A model generated the notes under the pieces. It did not search any database and was not told the DNA's origin. It was given only the letters and a program-made list of their open reading frames with translations. A stretch of 64,000 nucleotides of DNA from assembly GCA_003224085.1 (NCBI GenBank), contig QHYK01000056.1, positions 1 to 64,000 of the forward strand. The letters are read 5' to 3'. This DNA comes from Acidobacteriota bacterium (GTDB lineage: Bacteria > Acidobacteriota > Terriglobia > Acidiferrales > UBA7541). Shown here piece by piece: positions 1-51,961 of the stretch. Within the stretch, counting starts at the first letter, position 1. Every line of letters starts with the position of its first letter. The position numbers and the translations under genes were made by a program.

Positions 1-705
1 GCGTTCGAGCATCGCCTTGCGTTGTGCCTCGATAGGAATGTCCACGTATTGCGCGTGGCAGCCGGTTTGTTTGGTAATTTTCTCGGCGAGTTCCGGATAG
101 CTCAGCGCCTCCGGGCCATTCAGCTCATAGGTTTTGCCAGAGTGCTCGCCGCCGGCCAGGGATTTGGCCGCGACGGCCGCAATGTCGCGCGCATCGAGAA
201 AGCTGACGCGGGCTTTGCCCATGGAGGCGTGAAACACTCCTTGCGAGCGAACGGAGGGCGCGTAGTAGGTCAGCACGTTTTGATGGAAGCTGTTGGGGCG
301 GAGAATGGTAAAGGAAATTTTGGTGGACTTGAGCTTGTCTTCCACGGTGCGGTGCCAGCTGGGAAAAGATTTGCGGTAATCGCGGGCACCCAGGGCGGAA
401 AGCATGACGATATGCTTCACTCCGGCGGCAGTGCAGGCGTCAATCATGTTCCATTCCATTTCGATAAGCTGCGGAATCGGCGAACAGACCAGGAAAACGC
501 TGGTAACGCCCTTGAGCACGGGGGGCAGCGTCAGTTTCTTGGAGAAATCGGCGACGACGGCCGGGGTTCCAGCGGGAGCTTTGGCGGCTGCGGTGGGGGA
601 GCGATATAGGGCGCGGTATTTTTCGCCGGTCTTTGCTGATTGCTGGGCGACTTCGCCAACGACGGCCTTGCCAACCGTGCCGCTGGCACCGGTAACCAGA
701 ATCAT
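1..705 (-). CDS. NmrA-like NAD(P)-binding reductase, 3' end outside the window
   Basis: Atypical short-chain dehydrogenase of the NmrA/quinone-oxidoreductase-2 type, expected to bind NAD(P)H in the cytoplasm. The reading frame starts MILVTGASGTVGKAV, a classic TGxxGxxG dinucleotide loop at residues 5-12, and continues with the family-typical phrases VKHIVMLSALGA and FTILRPNSFHQNVL. No YxxxK pair is evident, as in regulatory or quinone-reducing members. The ATG at 705 follows a GGGAGG site at good spacing. 235 codons are visible and the frame is open at base 1, so the C-terminus is missing; complete members are about 280-300 residues. The family call is solid, the substrate unknown. Confidence 0.85.
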   Translation of the reverse strand, partial: MILVTGASGTVGKAVVGEVAQQSAKTGEKYRALYRSPTAAAKAPAGTPAVVADFSKKLTLPPVLKGVTSVFLVCSPIPQLIEMEWNMIDACTAAGVKHIVMLSALGARDYRKSFPSWHRTVEDKLKSTKISFTILRPNSFHQNVLTYYAPSVRSQGVFHASMGKARVSFLDARDIAAVAAKSLAGGEHSGKTYELNGPEALSYPELAEKITKQTGCHAQYVDIPIEAQRKAMLER

Positions 706-935
706 AGGTCCCTCCCTCGGTCGCACGCCGCGTGCATGCAGGCTGGTATTGAGGAGGCTGGCGTGGCTAGTCTCATAATCATATAGGGAGGCGCAACTCC
801 TGTACAGGAATATAGATGCCGATGAGGATAACCAGGACGCTATATAAGTCTGCATCCCCAGGTGCCCAAGAAGGTGGATTGTATGAGTCTGTGTGAAAAC
901 CGGTGTATTCGTCCAGGCACGGCTTTAGCTATGGC

Positions 936-961
936 GAGGCCCGCCTCAGAAGGCGGCCCCT
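936..961 (+). repeat. 26-base GC-rich repeat, copy 1
   Basis: Begins GAGGCCCGCCTCAG and ends GGCGGCCCCT. An identical 26-base copy lies at 1654-1679 in the same orientation. Internal GCCGCC-type and GGCGGC-type stretches can pair, so it may form a small hairpin. Both copies are followed by a GCGAGC motif and then a second partly palindromic segment, suggesting one longer, diverging element. Confidence 0.8.
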
Positions 962-975
962 GCGAGCAAGCGTAA

Positions 976-995
976 GGGCACGACGTGTCGTGCCC
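976..995. repeat. 20-base perfect palindrome
   Basis: GGGCACGAC-GT-GTCGTGCCC, nine-base arms around a two-base centre. It belongs to the element starting at 936. Palindromes of this composition are common as dispersed REP-like sequences; no T-run follows on either strand, so I do not call it a terminator. Confidence 0.7.
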
Positions 996-1386
996 CCAAT
1001 GAGGTATTCGAGGGTAAAGATGCACACAGAAGCACGGCTCTGGAAGACCCGCCACTACAGTTGCGAGGCTGCCTCAGGTTAGGCGTTCGGATTAGCCTGC
1101 GAAGGGAGGAAAGATTTCATTGCGCACAGAACGCAATCGCGAATGCTCGCCCGGGTGGAATGCAGTGTCGCCATAAGGCCGCAGCATTCCAAAATGCCGG
1201 CAACAACTGGCGGCGCTATGACCTTGAGAAAGCTGTTTCGTCTTGGTTGCGCTTCAAGAAGCCAATGTGCTTTACAGAAAACTTACAAGATGCTTGCGCT
1301 GCCTCATCGAAATTGATGGGGATTGCTTGCAACCTAGGGAAAAGGCCGTAAGGCCGGACTTGCAGCGAGCTACATGAGGAGCAGGT

Positions 1387-1527
1387 ATGAATACTCTCTT
1401 TCAGGCAGAAGAATCTTCCCTCAGTACAGGCAAGAAAGTCGTCATTGCGATTGTCGCTTTGGCGCTCTTAGGCCTCGGCGCGTGGGGAGCCGTTGAGATC
1501 GCCTGGCGTCTCCTCTCTGGCCGTTAG
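1387..1527 (+). CDS. Small single-span membrane protein (46 aa)
   Basis: Small reading frame with a good GAGGAG site six bases before the ATG. The protein starts MNTLFQAEESSLSTGKK and continues with one hydrophobic helix (about residues 18-38) followed by a short basic tail, WRLLSGR. The topology would place the acidic N-terminus on one side and a short tail on the other. No family is recognised. It stands alone between the two copies of the 26-base repeat. Support comes from the ribosome site and clean membrane-helix pattern; similarity is unknown. A comparable 37-residue frame lies at 31681-31794. Confidence 0.55.
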   Translation: MNTLFQAEESSLSTGKKVVIAIVALALLGLGAWGAVEIAWRLLSGR

Positions 1528-1653
1528 GGCGTGGAGTCATCGAGCGTAGCGGGGTTGAAATCAAGCCGCGATTTCCTCGGTCCGCTCGGAATGACAGGTT
1601 GGGAGCGAAGGCCAAGGAGCGGCGGGATGTCGGCGGAATATGAGAGGCAAGAA

Positions 1654-1679
1654 GAGGCCCGCCTCAGAAGGCGGCCCCT
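1654..1679 (+). repeat. 26-base GC-rich repeat, copy 2
   Basis: Identical to 936-961 over 26 bases, same orientation. The downstream half has diverged: where copy 1 has a perfect palindrome, this copy has GGGCGGGACATTCCC-like sequence. The two copies bracket the small membrane gene at 1387-1527. Confidence 0.8.
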
Positions 1680-1760
1680 ACAGCGAGCGGAAGGGCGGGA
1701 CATTCCCTCCGCTGCCCGGGATCTGCGATGTCGTGCTTTTGTGAATGAGACTTTTTGAGT

Positions 1761-2093
1761 TTACCTTGCGATTGGTGGCACTAGAGTGTTTTCACGGTCG
1801 TAGGGATTTTGGCGCGAGCGGGCGTAGCGGGTAATGGCGATGCAGGCGTACCAAAACAAAATGTAAACCAGCAAATTGCAGGTGAAGGCAAGCGCGGCGA
1901 GGAATCTTGGCCAACCGGCGATGAGGGAGCCCGGCGTGTTAACCGCGGAGACGAAGTGCGTCCCGGGTGCGGTGAGTACATCGAGAATTCTGGTCAAGGC
2001 GACACTGTAGGCGAGATTAATTCTCGCCTGGGCGAAGAGAACAGCGGTAATAACGCCCAAAACGAAGGCCCAAAGAAGCTTTGATCTGAACAT
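1761..2093 (-). CDS. Small membrane protein of unknown function (110 aa)
   Basis: The frame encodes two or three hydrophobic segments: residues about 5-25 (LLWAFVLGVITAVLFAQ), a weaker stretch near 55-72, and about 70-88 (LLVYILFWYACIAI), ending in a basic, Tyr/Arg-rich cytoplasmic-like tail. No known family is recognised. The ribosome site before the ATG at 2093 is weak. It is kept as a gene because the membrane pattern is coherent and no competing frame makes sense; function unassigned. Confidence 0.55.
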   Translation of the reverse strand: MFRSKLLWAFVLGVITAVLFAQARINLAYSVALTRILDVLTAPGTHFVSAVNTPGSLIAGWPRFLAALAFTCNLLVYILFWYACIAITRYARSRQNPYDRENTLVPPIAR

Positions 2094-17930: not shown

Positions 17931-18791
17931 ATGCGACAAATTGTCCCGCAACGCGCAGCCGGTTTCTCCCTCCTAGCAATTGCATTTTCTTTTCTCAGTT
18001 GTGGTGGCGGCGACACGCTTCAGCCTCCTCCCGCAAAGGGCTGGACCGTCGTCTGGTCTGACGAATTCAATGGCGCGGACGGCTCCGCTCCCGATTCCTC
18101 CAAATGGATTTACGATCTGGGCGGCAAGGGTTGGGGCAACAGCGAACTAGAGTGCTACACGAATCGCTTGCAAAACGCCCAAATTAAAGGCGGCCATCTC
18201 GTCATCACCGCGCAACAGGAAGGCGCTCCCTTTGTGTGCTCGGATGGCTCCACCAACAATTACACTTCGGCTCGCCTCAAGACCCAAGGCCTCTTCAGTC
18301 AGGCCTATGGACGCTTTGAAGCGCGCATCAAGATTCCCGCGGGGCAGGGAATGTGGCCTGCTTTCTGGATGCTGGGTAACAACATCACTTCTGCGGGCTG
18401 GCCCGCCTGCGGCGAAATCGACGTCATGGAGAATATCGGCAAGGAACCCGGCACCGTGCACGGTTCGCTTCACGGGCCGAGCACCACCAGCCGCACCAGC
18501 GACGCTTCAGCTCCTTTCAGCCTTCCAGGCGGTCAGGCATTCGCGAATGACTTTCATCTCTACGCTGTCGAATGGCAGCCGGGAGTAGTCCGCTTTTACG
18601 TGGACACGAATCTTTACGCCACGTTTACGCAATCCCAGTGGCCCACCGGCGGCACCTGGGTTTTCGATCATCCTTTCTTCATCCTTCTCAATGTCGCCGT
18701 AGGCGGCTCCTGGCCCGGCTCTCCCGACAGCACCACGGTCTTCCCTCAGCAAATGCTTGTCGACTACGTCCGCGTCTACACCAAGCAATAA
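17931..18791 (+). CDS. GH16-family glucanase lipoprotein
   Basis: Glycoside hydrolase family 16 (laminarinase/lichenase-like), expected to cleave beta-1,3 or mixed beta-glucans at the cell surface. The N-terminus is a lipoprotein signal with lipobox-like FLSC before GGG (Cys near residue 24). The catalytic ExDxxE motif is GEIDVMENIG (residues about 160-170), with flanking GMWPAFWMLG and the C-terminal FFILLNVAVGGSWPG and VDYVRVY strands. 286 residues, single domain, no carbohydrate-binding module. GTG or ATG choice is not an issue: ATG 17931 directly opens the leader. Single gene unit. Confidence 0.93.
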   Translation: MRQIVPQRAAGFSLLAIAFSFLSCGGGDTLQPPPAKGWTVVWSDEFNGADGSAPDSSKWIYDLGGKGWGNSELECYTNRLQNAQIKGGHLVITAQQEGAPFVCSDGSTNNYTSARLKTQGLFSQAYGRFEARIKIPAGQGMWPAFWMLGNNITSAGWPACGEIDVMENIGKEPGTVHGSLHGPSTTSRTSDASAPFSLPGGQAFANDFHLYAVEWQPGVVRFYVDTNLYATFTQSQWPTGGTWVFDHPFFILLNVAVGGSWPGSPDSTTVFPQQMLVDYVRVYTKQ

Positions 18792-31803: not shown

Positions 31804-34044
31804 TCACTGCGCAAAGCAAGGATCGCCTTGGGGAGGAGGCGCGTGATCTTCTTTCGCGGGCGGACCGAGCAGTTCGGTGAAGATGGGCTTCAGCGCATCG
31901 GCCCAAACCTGGTAGCCCTTGAGCGCGGGATGTAGCTTGTCGGCATTCATCATGCCGTCGAACAGCTTGCCCTCTTTATCCGCCAGTTTATCGTTGATGT
32001 TCAGGTAGCGGATTTTCTGGCCGTCGGCGAGCTGGGATAGATTTTCGTTAATTCGGTTGATCATGGGCATCACCAGGGGATTGTCGTTACGCGGGAAAAT
32101 CGCGGTCAGAGTAATTGTGGCGTCCGGAGCCTTGGCTTGCATGATGCGCAGGATCCCCTGGATGCCGCTGGTGACCTCCGCGACTTTTGCATCGGCGCTT
32201 GCTGTGGGAGTGGCATTGCCCACATTATTCGTGCCGGCGAGCAACACGATCACTTTCGGATTCACTCCATCGAGTTCGCCATTCTCCAGACGCCAGAGAA
32301 TGTTTTCGGTCTTGTCGGCTCCCCAGCCGAAGTCGGCGACGTTCCAACCAAAGAAGTTCTGTTTCCAGTTGGCGAGCAGTTCCGGATAATCTGCGGCTCC
32401 CCAGCGGCGTGTGATGGAGTCACCTTCAAAATAAATGTCGATGCGGCCTTTTCCCGCCTTGTCCAGCAGTTGCTCGTGGGCGATGAGCGAGTTGGGGTCG
32501 GTTCGAGGGGCGGGCTGGTCTGCTGGCAGCGGCGCGGCTACCGGAGCAGCCGTTGGGGAAAACGCGGCTTTGTGATGCAGGAATTTGTCGGCCCAGTTGA
32601 TGAAGTATTTCCAATTGGGGCCGTCGGTGTGTCCGCCGTGGTGCTGGCGCCAGGCAAGTTCGCCATCGAGCAGGCCCATTTTGACGGGAGGCATTTTTGC
32701 GGTGCGATAGTCGTCGGAAACGCCCAAGTCTTGTGCGCCGAGAAGTTTGAATACGGGACCGGCAGCCACGGCGGCCATGAAGCTGCCCTCCTGGTCGAGC
32801 CACCTGGCATCGCCCTTCTCCGGGACGCCGTAGCTGATGAAGGTCAGGCGCGGCGCGCACAAGGCGATGAGTTCGTGCGCGTCGACGGGCAGGTCGCCGG
32901 CGTTCTTGCTGCCAAAGGCACCTTCGGCAGCACCATACTTGAGAAAGTTGCCGGCCATCCAGTGGTATTCGCCGGAGCCGGTGAGGTTTTCGACAGCTTC
33001 GCCAAAATTGCGGCGATGGAGTTTGGCGCCGCCTTCGCCGGAAGAGCCGACGAGCACAAGAGCAAAGCGCGTGTCGAAGGCCATGGTGACAAGTGCAGCT
33101 TTGCCATAACGCGAAACGCCTTCGATGCCGACGTGTTTTGCGTCGATAGCTTTATCGGTTTCCAGATAATCCAGAGCGCGCGAGGCGCCCCAGGCCCAGG
33201 CTCGCAGGGCGCCCCAGTCGTCAGACTTGCGGGGCTGGCCCTGGTTGACGAGACCGATGATGCCGCGAGTCAGGCCCGCGCCGTTGTCGGCTTGAATGCT
33301 GGCGGGATTGATATAGGCGTAGCCCCAGCCATCGGTGATGAGCTGTTCGGCCGGAGCAGGATCGCTGCCGGGAGAGCCGGGCGCGCCGGGAATGACGAAC
33401 GGAAGTGGCGCGGCTCCAGCTCGCGCAAAATCGCCGCGGGCAAACATCATCATCACGGAAACGGGGACGGCGGCATCGGCGGGCCGCACCAGGAGCATTT
33501 GGATATCGACGTTGATGGGCGGATAGGAAGAATTATCCACGTGGCCGGTGAGCTGCTGCTTGATGACGGGATGAGAAGCAATTACGGTGGTCTCCGAGTT
33601 TGTAACGGTCCAAGTTACTTTGGGAACGTTCTTGGGAATTCGGCCAATGACTTCGCGCTCGAAATCTTCCACGATTTCGGGCCGGCGTTGCTTCCACCAC
33701 ATTTCGGCATTGGTGACTTTCTTGCCGTTCTTCAGAGTTAGAGGATCGGGCAGATCCGGGAAGGGATTCGCCTTGGACTCGTCGTAGTTTGCGTGATTGG
33801 GCGCGTTTTCGTTCCCACTGGGGCCGGGGCGGAGCGCTTTGATGCCGAGTTGGTCCTGCATGTCCTGGTGGTCTTGCTCGGCGGTCCAATTCATCGGGGG
33901 AGGGAAGCCGGTGGAATTCGGCGCTGGAAGCTGGGTGGGTGACGGAGATTGCTGGCCGAAGAGGTCGGTAGCTAGCGGAACAGCCAAAAGAAGAATGATG
34001 AACTGCGCGAAAGAGGTCAAAAGCAATAGCGATCGGCGAGTCAT
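31804..34044 (-). CDS. Secreted two-domain esterase: glucuronoyl-esterase-like (CE15) plus SGNH hydrolase
   Basis: From ATG 34044 a signal peptide (LLLLTSFAQFIILLLAVPLATDLFG) opens a 746-residue protein. Domain 1 (about 100-500) is CE15-like, the group cleaving glucuronate esters that link lignin to xylan: nucleophile Ser311 in GVSRYGKAAL, Glu in SSGEGG, His in the HHGGHTDGPNW region. After a Pro/Ala linker, domain 2 (about 530-746) is an SGNH/GDSL esterase: Ser543 in EGDSITRRWG, the block-III Asn in LLAGTNN, and DKLHP near the end; relatives deacetylate sugars. The frame continues upstream to 34686, but that part is an unrelated remnant. No strong ribosome site supports the start. Confidence 0.83.
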   Translation of the reverse strand: MTRRSLLLLTSFAQFIILLLAVPLATDLFGQQSPSPTQLPAPNSTGFPPPMNWTAEQDHQDMQDQLGIKALRPGPSGNENAPNHANYDESKANPFPDLPDPLTLKNGKKVTNAEMWWKQRRPEIVEDFEREVIGRIPKNVPKVTWTVTNSETTVIASHPVIKQQLTGHVDNSSYPPINVDIQMLLVRPADAAVPVSVMMMFARGDFARAGAAPLPFVIPGAPGSPGSDPAPAEQLITDGWGYAYINPASIQADNGAGLTRGIIGLVNQGQPRKSDDWGALRAWAWGASRALDYLETDKAIDAKHVGIEGVSRYGKAALVTMAFDTRFALVLVGSSGEGGAKLHRRNFGEAVENLTGSGEYHWMAGNFLKYGAAEGAFGSKNAGDLPVDAHELIALCAPRLTFISYGVPEKGDARWLDQEGSFMAAVAAGPVFKLLGAQDLGVSDDYRTAKMPPVKMGLLDGELAWRQHHGGHTDGPNWKYFINWADKFLHHKAAFSPTAAPVAAPLPADQPAPRTDPNSLIAHEQLLDKAGKGRIDIYFEGDSITRRWGAADYPELLANWKQNFFGWNVADFGWGADKTENILWRLENGELDGVNPKVIVLLAGTNNVGNATPTASADAKVAEVTSGIQGILRIMQAKAPDATITLTAIFPRNDNPLVMPMINRINENLSQLADGQKIRYLNINDKLADKEGKLFDGMMNADKLHPALKGYQVWADALKPIFTELLGPPAKEDHAPPPQGDPCFAQ

Positions 34045-34686
34045 TGCGCCAGAGAGAATAAAGGGATTCTTATAAAGCGGCAAGCGGTTCCAGGCGGGCT
34101 GTTTGTGGCGAGACAGGAACCAGATCGTGATGGCAATGAACAGGAAAAAGTTCACTGCGAGCGCGACGTGTGAGGCAATCCAGGGGATGGGAACGAGGCA
34201 GATTTGCGCGGCAATGTCTTTTGGATTTCGCGAAGGCAGGTGCAGCACGGCGTCGAACAGGATTGCCCGGATGTTTTGCCCGAGGCCTTCCGTTGAGCCG
34301 CAGACATTGCGCAGGGCGATGATGACGGTGTCGCAAATCAGGCCGAGCAAGTTGTAGCCGCAATTGCTGTATTCCCACTTAGTGCCGGGGGCGGAAGCGA
34401 GTGCGGGCTGGCCAAATTTCTCAGCAAATTCCTGGTGCTCGTAACGGCGAGCGGCCGCGGGCGTCGCTGAAAATTCCGGCGAACCGAAGTCGGGTGGCAT
34501 GCCGGAGATGTGATGGAGCAATTGCTCGAAGGTCATGCGGCTGCCGGTGTCTTTGCCATACCAAGGCAGATAATCGCTGACCTTGCCCGGAAGCAGGATC
34601 TTGCCTTCGGCAGCTTGTTGGAGGACGAGCAGAAACGATCCCCTCGATGCGCTGGGCCTTGTCGGATGGGGGCGGTTGGCCCGCAA
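34045..34686 (-). pseudogene. In-frame remnant of a class C beta-lactamase-like serine hydrolase plus membrane segments
   Basis: Positions about 34638-34341 encode LLVLQQAAEGKILLPGKVSDYLP and later MTFEQLLHHISGMPPDF and APGTKWEYSNCGYNLLGLI, which match the middle of AmpC/penicillin-binding-like esterases, including the Y-S-N motif. The catalytic SxxK stretch should lie just upstream and is absent, as is the C-terminal half. From about 34340 to 34045 the frame encodes unrelated sequence with two membrane helices. The whole joins the secreted esterase in frame, so automatic annotation may report one 960-residue protein. Confidence 0.65.
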
Positions 34687-50703: not shown

Positions 50704-51961
50704 TTATTCCTTTGCACAAACGAAATTAGCGGCTTCGTCGGTGCTGCCGGAACCGGTGTACTTGGCGACTTGTGGATACGGGCACAAGGGGCGCGTGCGG
50801 TCCGGCTTGTCGTGGCGCGCGCCCGGCGGGAAGTGCGACGCGACAATGCGGTCTGGTGCTTTGCCCTTCTCGACCCATTGTTCGAGCGCCTCGACGGAGT
50901 CAAATTCTGAAGGGCCATCGCCGCCGCCACAATGGTTCATCCCTGGGGCCATAAACAAACGCATGGAGTTCGTCACCTTGATCGAGCCGCCCATCACGGC
51001 AACCACACTGTTGTAATACTTAATGGCGTTATGTGGGGCGATGGCGGGGTCGTTCCAACCGTGGTACAGGAAAAGCTTCCCGCCCTGCGCAAAGAATTCC
51101 TTCAGATTCGGGTCGATCGCGTTGAGCTCTCCCCTGTCCAGTTTGTCAGCCAGAGCGACATCGCCATCAAAGTTCAAGCTGCGGTAATCCCAGCTCGGGT
51201 TCTGGAATACCAAATATTTGAAGTGCGAAGCGACAATCGGCGGGTCAGGACCCGGACCGCCGGCGAAAAAGTTCCAGCCGTTTTCACTTCCCGGCTCCAG
51301 GCCAGGGGAAATCTGTTCGCCGGTCCGCGGGTTCTTCGGCCCGGAGTAGACCTTTCTCGCGGCCTCCAACTGGGCTGCCGTTAGGCAGTCTGGGCCGTTC
51401 GCACCCTTGCATTGCACCGCCTTCGGATCAAAGTGGCAGCGCTTCGGATTCTCGAGGACGCCGTCTTTCACGCCGTCTAGCGCGTCGCAGGCCTCGACGA
51501 CGGCTTTGTGGAGCAACGGAAATTTTTCTTTGGGAAGGTACCTGCGGGGTTTTCGCGAGTTACCTGGCCGATCCAGATGCCGCTGACAATAAGATGGGTC
51601 CAGAAATTGGCAGGCGCGCCGGCGATTATGCCATCGTAGTCCTTTGGGAAGCTCTGTGCTTCCTTGAGCCCTTGTTTACCTCCTGACGAGCAGCCACGCC
51701 AGTAGGAATGTTTGAGAGCATCAGAACCATAAAACGCAGCGATGATGGCCTTTGCCGTTACGGTCATTTCAGCTCCCCGAACATATATGAGTAGCGTTTT
51801 GGCGGGTTGAAGGTGCCCGCTGGTTCCAGCTTCGCGAGGTTGATGGTTGTGTCGGGCAGGGTGAGTGCAGCCAGGCTGTCACAAGTGGCGGCGCTCGCTG
51901 GTCGGACCAAAAAACAGAATACCGCAGAAAAAAACACCACCAATACCATCCAGCTCCGCAA
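50704..51961 (-). pseudogene. Tannase/feruloyl-esterase-family gene with internal deletion and frameshifts
   Basis: The N-terminal piece from 51961 carries a signal peptide (MVLVVFFSAVFCFLVRPASA), then CDSLAALTLPDTTINLAKLEPAGTF, as in the family. It stops near 51764 and the next frame begins EMTVTAKAIIAAFYG with the nucleophile region YWRGCSSGGKQGLKEAQ. In complete relatives about 130 residues separate these two points, so an internal deletion has occurred. A second shift near the T-run at 51523-51527 separates LLHKAVVEACDALDGVKDGV. The remaining C-terminal part is intact to 50704, with Asp in HGWNDPAI and His in MNHCGGGDGP. Complete tannase/FaeB-like enzymes are about 500-550 residues. Confidence 0.85.

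Follow-up and report, generated by a model that had tools for sequence, protein, structure and literature searches.

Two carbohydrate esterases in one polypeptide, one chain performing both ester cleavages, are already in print for CesA of Ruminococcus flavefaciens (Q9RLB8; PMC11345330). According to the portions of the papers available to us, CesA carries a CE3 acetyl xylan esterase at its N-terminus and a CE15 domain at its C-terminus (PMC11345330, PMC4951047, PMC2930009, PMC9487903), arranged in strain FD-1 as CE3-CBM22-Doc-CE15 (PMC2930009), and cooperative action on glucuronoxylan was proposed (PMC11345330, PMC4951047). Another group, the FjoAcXE/PbeAcXE-type SGNH esterases, is described in the accessible parts of two reports as removing 3-O-acetyl groups beside 2-O-methylglucuronate (2-O-MeGlcA), which helps GH67 and GH115 enzymes (PMC5863359, PMC9105624). 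The subject of the present analysis is a gene at 31804-34044 in a stretch of 64,000 nucleotides (hereafter the window) from contig QHYK01000056.1 of an Acidobacteriota bacterium, in which a CE15 domain is followed by an SGNH hydrolase domain in the same chain.

The gene is a single open frame on the minus strand and encodes a protein of 746 amino acids (aa) with an ATG at 34042-34044. From its computed domains, catalytic residues, conservation, linkage and fusion history, we infer that the product is a bifunctional carbohydrate esterase that is secreted or resides in the periplasm and attacks glucuronoxylan, a reading to which we assign a probability of roughly two in three. An earlier sequence-only reading had proposed a CE15-like glucuronoyl esterase fused to an SGNH esterase, and this is borne out, since both parts match solved structures, the first TtCE15A of Teredinibacter turnerae (6hsw, E 2.1e-104) and the second platelet-activating factor acetylhydrolase (PAF-AH) Ib (E 2.1e-20). 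The two nucleophiles it named, Ser311 and Ser543, keep that numbering and are present in all 106 CE15 and all 84 SGNH alignment rows, some genomes being represented twice because they were drawn from both sources. The location that it gave stands, and the strand, which it had left out, is minus. Its further suggestion, that one secreted polypeptide could detach both the lignin-carbohydrate ester and the acetyl groups of xylan, is supported in part, with acetyl removal by the SGNH domain as a putative activity.

The alignment to TtCE15A, the best solved relative, covers residues 54-486, and Pfam places GCE_fung (PF22244) at aa 274-436 (E 5e-30), so that homology over the whole domain assigns it to CE15. 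TtCE15A Ser-281 corresponds to Ser311 and Phe-174 to Phe201. The predicted catalytic triad, assigned by alignment position and not by measured geometry, is of the non-canonical type, Ser311-His472-Asp412, with the acid on another loop and Ser334 replacing the canonical Glu. In TtCE15A the location of the acid on another loop is backed by mutation, E374A causing an approximately 100-fold loss of kcat in the part of the study available to us (PMC6484129). Further conserved positions include Phe201, invariant in 47 rows, Arg312 and Lys315, found in 106 of 106 rows, and the xylan-side Trp (Trp415), which follows the acid at a distance of two or three places and occurs in at least 97% of them. A role at pectin-lignin bonds has been proposed for some CE15 enzymes of Bacteroidota in the accessible portion of one paper (PMC10807430), and the CE15 head might act on other uronate esters, such as pectin-linked ones, in which case the pair would serve pectin. 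This seems highly improbable, given that the best match is the glucuronoyl esterase TtCE15A, that Phe201, Trp415, Arg312 and Lys315 of the TtCE15A family are kept, and that the partners of the SGNH subfamily described below are xylan enzymes.

The C-terminal part matches Lipase_GDSL_2 (PF13472) at aa 541-713 (E 1.3e-22), with Lipase_GDSL likewise above the cut-off; both domains named by the sequence-only reading are thus recovered by profile hidden Markov models. It has the Ser, Gly, Asn and His of blocks I, II, III and V and the Asp of DxxH that mark the SGNH superfamily. Among close members (at least 50% identity; 88 distinct motif sets), block I reads G[DN]SIxRRW and block II WGxD wherever these are covered, the variable position of GDSI being Asp in 80 and Asn in 4 of the 84 rows. 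The Arg pair of block I is missing from all 28 distant SGNH rows covering this block, one of which (L129) has the second Arg; the distant set numbers 29 rows, some of them the same place in two loci. PAF-AH lacks the RRW stretch that follows the catalytic Ser and shows a gap there in the alignment. As described in the available part of PMC9105624, an Arg five places after the catalytic Ser of PbeAcXE contacts the MeGlcA-Xyl ligand, and by analogy Arg546 and Arg547, three and four places after Ser543, could contact a uronate likewise.

Two assignments of this domain to described esterase types were rejected. Searched against solved structures with profile A2, built from the SGNH part alone, CE3 was matched far more weakly (5b5s, E 1.4e-4) than PAF-AH Ib (E 4.5e-32). 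The FjoAcXE type is marked by a GNSI motif and an N-terminal domain resembling a carbohydrate binding module (CBM); here the motif is GDSI and the preceding domain is CE15. The features of the gene are listed in Table 1.

Table 1. Features of the CE15-SGNH gene in window coordinates, with the evidence for each.
Feature	Position	Strand	Basis
Whole gene, 746 aa plus stop	31804..34044	minus	Open frame, translation
Probable signal peptide, aa 1-31 (cleavage site not computed)	33952..34044	minus	Suggested by hydrophobic N-terminus
CE15 glucuronoyl esterase domain, aa 54-491	32572..33885	minus	Pfam, structure-sequence match, models
CE15 nucleophile Ser311, in GVSRYGK	33112..33114	minus	Ser in 106/106 rows
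Ser334 at canonical CE15 acid place (TtCE15A Ser-304)	33043..33045	minus	6hsw alignment; Ser in 105/106 rows, Cys in 1
Non-canonical acid Asp412 (TtCE15A Glu-374)	32809..32811	minus	6hsw alignment; Asp 101, Glu 4, gap 1 of 106 rows
CE15 His472 (TtCE15A His-427)	32629..32631	minus	6hsw alignment; 105/106 rows, gap in 1
Linker, aa 492-516, Pro/Ala rich, ending in PADQPAPRTD	32497..32571	minus	Sequence; aa 496-503 of low confidence in model
SGNH hydrolase domain, about aa 517-728	31861..32496	minus	Pfam, sequence match, models
SGNH block I nucleophile Ser543, in GDSIT	32416..32418	minus	84/84 rows
Arg546-Arg547	32404..32409	minus	No exception in the 47 rows of alignment A1 or the 51 of A2
SGNH block II Gly575	32320..32322	minus	84/84 rows
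SGNH block III Asn606	32227..32229	minus	84/84 rows
SGNH block V Asp702	31939..31941	minus	84/84 rows
SGNH block V His705	31930..31932	minus	84/84 rows

Structure prediction, which had been suggested as a check, agrees with the two-domain assignment. AlphaFold2 models were obtained for the whole chain from an alignment of 47 fused proteins (mean predicted local distance difference test score, pLDDT, 77.2; predicted template modelling score, pTM, 0.63) and for the SGNH part from 51 rows (mean pLDDT 87.1, pTM 0.88). The top Foldseek match of the former is 6hsw, with the CE15 fold (E 3.4e-38), and that of the latter PAF-AH Ib (E 2.4e-14). The relative placing of both domains in the whole-chain model was left out of use (pTM 0.63).

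The spread of the fusion was followed in 110 loci, 30 from 61 genomes near the window genome and 80 of 586 confirmed matches. These were selected with the whole fusion as query, so shares among them are not frequencies. Both domains lie in one frame in 61 loci and in separate nearby frames in 23, on the same strand in 22 of the latter and on opposite strands in one (L102); three loci have SGNH only and one has neither. Eleven loci with both domains are duplicates between the two sources. Fused loci occur in four phyla as named by record titles, namely Acidobacteriota, Gemmatimonadota, Planctomycetota and Verrucomicrobiota, although some bins could carry a wrong name. The fusion is retained in the four nearest relatives, which belong to the same genus and are 82-85% identical. 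One metagenome-assembled genome titled Bordetella parapertussis (L095) is probably misnamed, because its protein parts, where compared, do not differ from those of L013 (G046), a locus from the class to which the window genome belongs.

On a 73-row CE15 tree (51 rows fused and 22 separate), from which alone these counts derive, the fusion state needs 9 changes (bootstrap range 8-9), and the starred branches force at least 6; the fusion has therefore been gained or lost several times. Separate SGNH frames begin, by reading, with a signal-peptide-like stretch followed by PADQPxxRTDxNS or a variant, and thus seem to carry their own signal peptide; fused linkers mostly end in a similar PADQPxxRTDxNS-like sequence and have no such stretch (likewise by reading, no signal-peptide program being used). 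This is a clear case of two probably secreted enzymes that were repeatedly fused and separated, a change accompanied by loss or gain of the second signal peptide. A false fusion produced in assembly or sequencing, for instance by a missed stop, might be suspected from four loci (L039, L053, L079 and L084) in which only one in-frame stop parts the two frames. It is extremely improbable, because the 61 fused loci are shared among the four phyla, 20 of the 30 loci examined in a class sample are fused as well, and the fused linkers are free of the signal-peptide-like stretch. In two single-contig genomes (G423 and G451, loci not fetched), the SGNH part also sits in frames of 861 and 730 aa, a length compatible with fusion. 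Upstream of CE15 in five relatives (L045, L083, L035, L047 and L051) there are long open frames, and Pfam at E 0.001 matched only CE15 and GDSL families in them; a third domain there was rejected.

The hydrophobic N-terminus begins at the 34044 start, and the protein is probably secreted, as far as this N-terminus tells. The choice of this start is a judgement call, because the same frame stays open upstream as far as 34686, where only a truncated remnant of a beta-lactamase-family gene was found (PF00144, profile positions 62-156 of 329, at 34333-34632 on the minus strand); the 34045-34686 extension was thus rejected as a true N-terminal domain. In L002/L031 a match to this remnant also precedes the gene (48% identity), and short matching pieces lie upstream in L034, with a transposase open reading frame (ORF) in between.

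The genomic partners of the SGNH subfamily were examined with profile A2, the rows of which all come from CE15-linked loci, in genome samples that each include a genome already known to hold the gene. At E 1e-30, matches were found in 22 of 297 genomes of the phylum sample (13 loci below 1e-100), and 33 of 299 genomes of the class sample gave the 30 loci mentioned above. In the phyla of G353 (Planctomycetota by the title of L080) and G354 (Verrucomicrobiota by the title of L084), 2 of 294 and 6 of 288 genomes matched. Among 49 distinct loci of the close group, 21 are fused to CE15, 15 have CE15 on the same strand and 3 on the opposite strand, and 10 have none within about 1.5 kb; in a control group of more distant SGNH proteins, CE15 was present in 2 of 17 loci, both of which also have a close-group SGNH. 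Second, distant SGNH genes of the GDSITDFWR or GDSITDLWN type stand a few kb from the CE15-SGNH pair in L113 (also L102, L135), L118 (also L093, L139) and L144.

Other partners of the subfamily belong largely to xylan degradation. Among the 10 loci with no CE15 within that distance, SGNH is fused to AXE1 in L119/L141 (G144) and to a GH115 alpha-glucuronidase in L179/L183 (G955); the surroundings of the latter fusion include GH43, GH2 and two GH10 proteins, of which one bears a polysaccharide deacetylase domain. In L153/L188 (G376) the SGNH gene lies between AXE1 and GH67. Outside these 10, a GH67 gene at 3-1976 (minus strand) of L068, a Gemmatimonadetes contig, is some 3 kb away from the fused gene, and a GH127-like protein is encoded downstream. 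Of the remaining loci without a nearby CE15, GH43 and GH2 are near SGNH in L181/L186, a LacI regulator (GH2 farther off) in L178/L184, a GH35/GH42-like protein and LacI in L180/L185, and GH2 in L117/L142, where a CE15 lies some 7.6 kb off, at the limit of the retrieved sequence. The single ORF scanned in L170/L189 is an oxidoreductase, the two scanned in L182/L187 gave no xylan-related match, and L121/L143 has no CE15 within 15.7 kb (no Pfam scan of this locus). An acetyl xylan esterase role of SGNH is suggested because its partners are AXE1, GH115 and GH67. The CE15 head could alternatively be a glucuronoyl esterase paired with an SGNH head that removes another acyl group (feruloyl, or acetyl from pectin or mannan) or is a general arylesterase. 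PF13472, the family matched here, spans many specificities, the nearest solved relatives are PAF-AH and sialate O-acetylesterases, and some Verrucomicrobiota loci have GH2 or a DUF5597/GH35-like protein and no xylanases among the ORFs scanned. We consider this unlikely, as the AXE1, GH115, GH67 and GH10 proteins found as fusion partners or neighbours indicate a link to xylan.

If the protein is the glucuronoxylan esterase proposed here, the CE15 head would cleave the ester between (4-O-methyl)glucuronate and lignin by the serine mechanism of alpha/beta-hydrolases, using Ser311-His472-Asp412. The SGNH head (Ser543-His705-Asp702, oxyanion Gly575/Asn606) would take O-acetyl off this polymer, most likely from the xylose that bears the glucuronate or from a site close to it, and both heads would thereby clear the branch for an alpha-glucuronidase. 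The genome itself encodes one GH67 enzyme (E 1e-151).

Several observations weigh against this proposal. A search of the same genome for GH115 gave no match, and GH10 gave one partial match above the cut-off (E 2.1e-6); around the window gene there is no cluster of xylan enzymes in the ORF lists as read, with few ORFs scanned. CE15 stands without an SGNH match in 22 of the 110 loci (some short or cut), and the genome of one of them (L100) has no SGNH matching this profile at 1e-20. The SGNH relatives of known structure that come closest in sequence and fold are PAF and sialate esterases, and the acetyl xylan esterases with solved structures are only remotely related. CE15 enzymes may also act on other substrates; glucuronate esters are thought not to be the natural substrate of the CE15 enzyme MZ0003, as stated in the accessible part of PMC4951047. 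In the whole-chain model, pLDDT is below 50 at 410-418, which holds Asp412, and at 547-550, which holds Arg547 and adjoins Arg546, so Asp412 and Arg547 were placed by alignment. Finally, 1 of the 6 SGNH loci of the Verrucomicrobiota sample adjoins a CE15, which argues against a role of SGNH tied exclusively to CE15 and in favour of a broader one.

Tentatively, and with rather low confidence, it may be proposed that the SGNH domain founds its own carbohydrate-esterase family (G[DN]SIxRRW ... WGxD) that removes acetyl next to methylglucuronate on xylan, that Arg546-Arg547 bind the uronate, and that several phyla fused it to, or kept it beside, CE15, GH115, GH67 and AXE1. Acetyl in this position blocks alpha-glucuronidases, and in the part of the paper available to us this gap was reported to be filled by FjoAcXE, which is an SGNH enzyme of a different type (PMC5863359). 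A widespread SGNH subfamily tied to CE15, GH115 and GH67 would then be a second solution to that acetyl block, and the fusion would be a ready-made enzyme whose two heads could free hardwood xylan of lignin and acetyl.

Elsewhere in the window, far from the esterase gene, an ORF at 50704-51516 (minus strand) matches the profile of the Tannase/feruloyl esterase family PF07519 at positions 186-490 of 490 only, which is the C-terminal part; the N-terminal part is missing from this ORF. Another distant ORF, at 17931-18791 (plus strand), presumably encodes a GH16-like glucanase, by reading of a motif that we take to be characteristic.

No paper on a CE15-SGNH fusion of this type or on an SGNH-GH115 fusion was found in the accessible portions of open-licence full texts, a corpus that leaves subscription journals mostly outside. 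CE15 fusions known from the available parts of the literature include CkXyn10C-GE15A and the CE15-GH8 enzyme of Bacteroides eggerthii, in which the partner of CE15 is a glycoside hydrolase and not an SGNH esterase. TtCE15A shares with the window protein the CE15 fold (40% identity in the Foldseek alignment) and an active site in which Ser occupies the canonical acid position and a different loop supplies the acid; in contrast, its solved chain (440 residues) has no SGNH domain, and its acid is Glu rather than Asp. The catalytic subunits of PAF-AH Ib (1wab, 1es9) are the closest solved proteins to the window SGNH in sequence and fold, but are intracellular brain enzymes with a gap where its subfamily has RRW, whereas the FjoAcXE/PbeAcXE type (7tog) shares the SGNH fold at Foldseek rank 41 and 15% identity. 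Closest in design is CesA, which likewise combines an acetyl xylan esterase of SGNH fold with a CE15 glucuronoyl esterase in a single chain. Unlike CesA, the window protein has CE15 first, has no dockerin or CBM detected by Pfam, and contains an SGNH domain nearest to PAF-AH Ib and not to solved CE3, and RfCE15 (8tse) is a far relative of its CE15 domain (E 8.4e-17). The fusion of SGNH (CE3) with CE15 is thus already known from CesA, and what is new here is the reversed order and the other SGNH branch.
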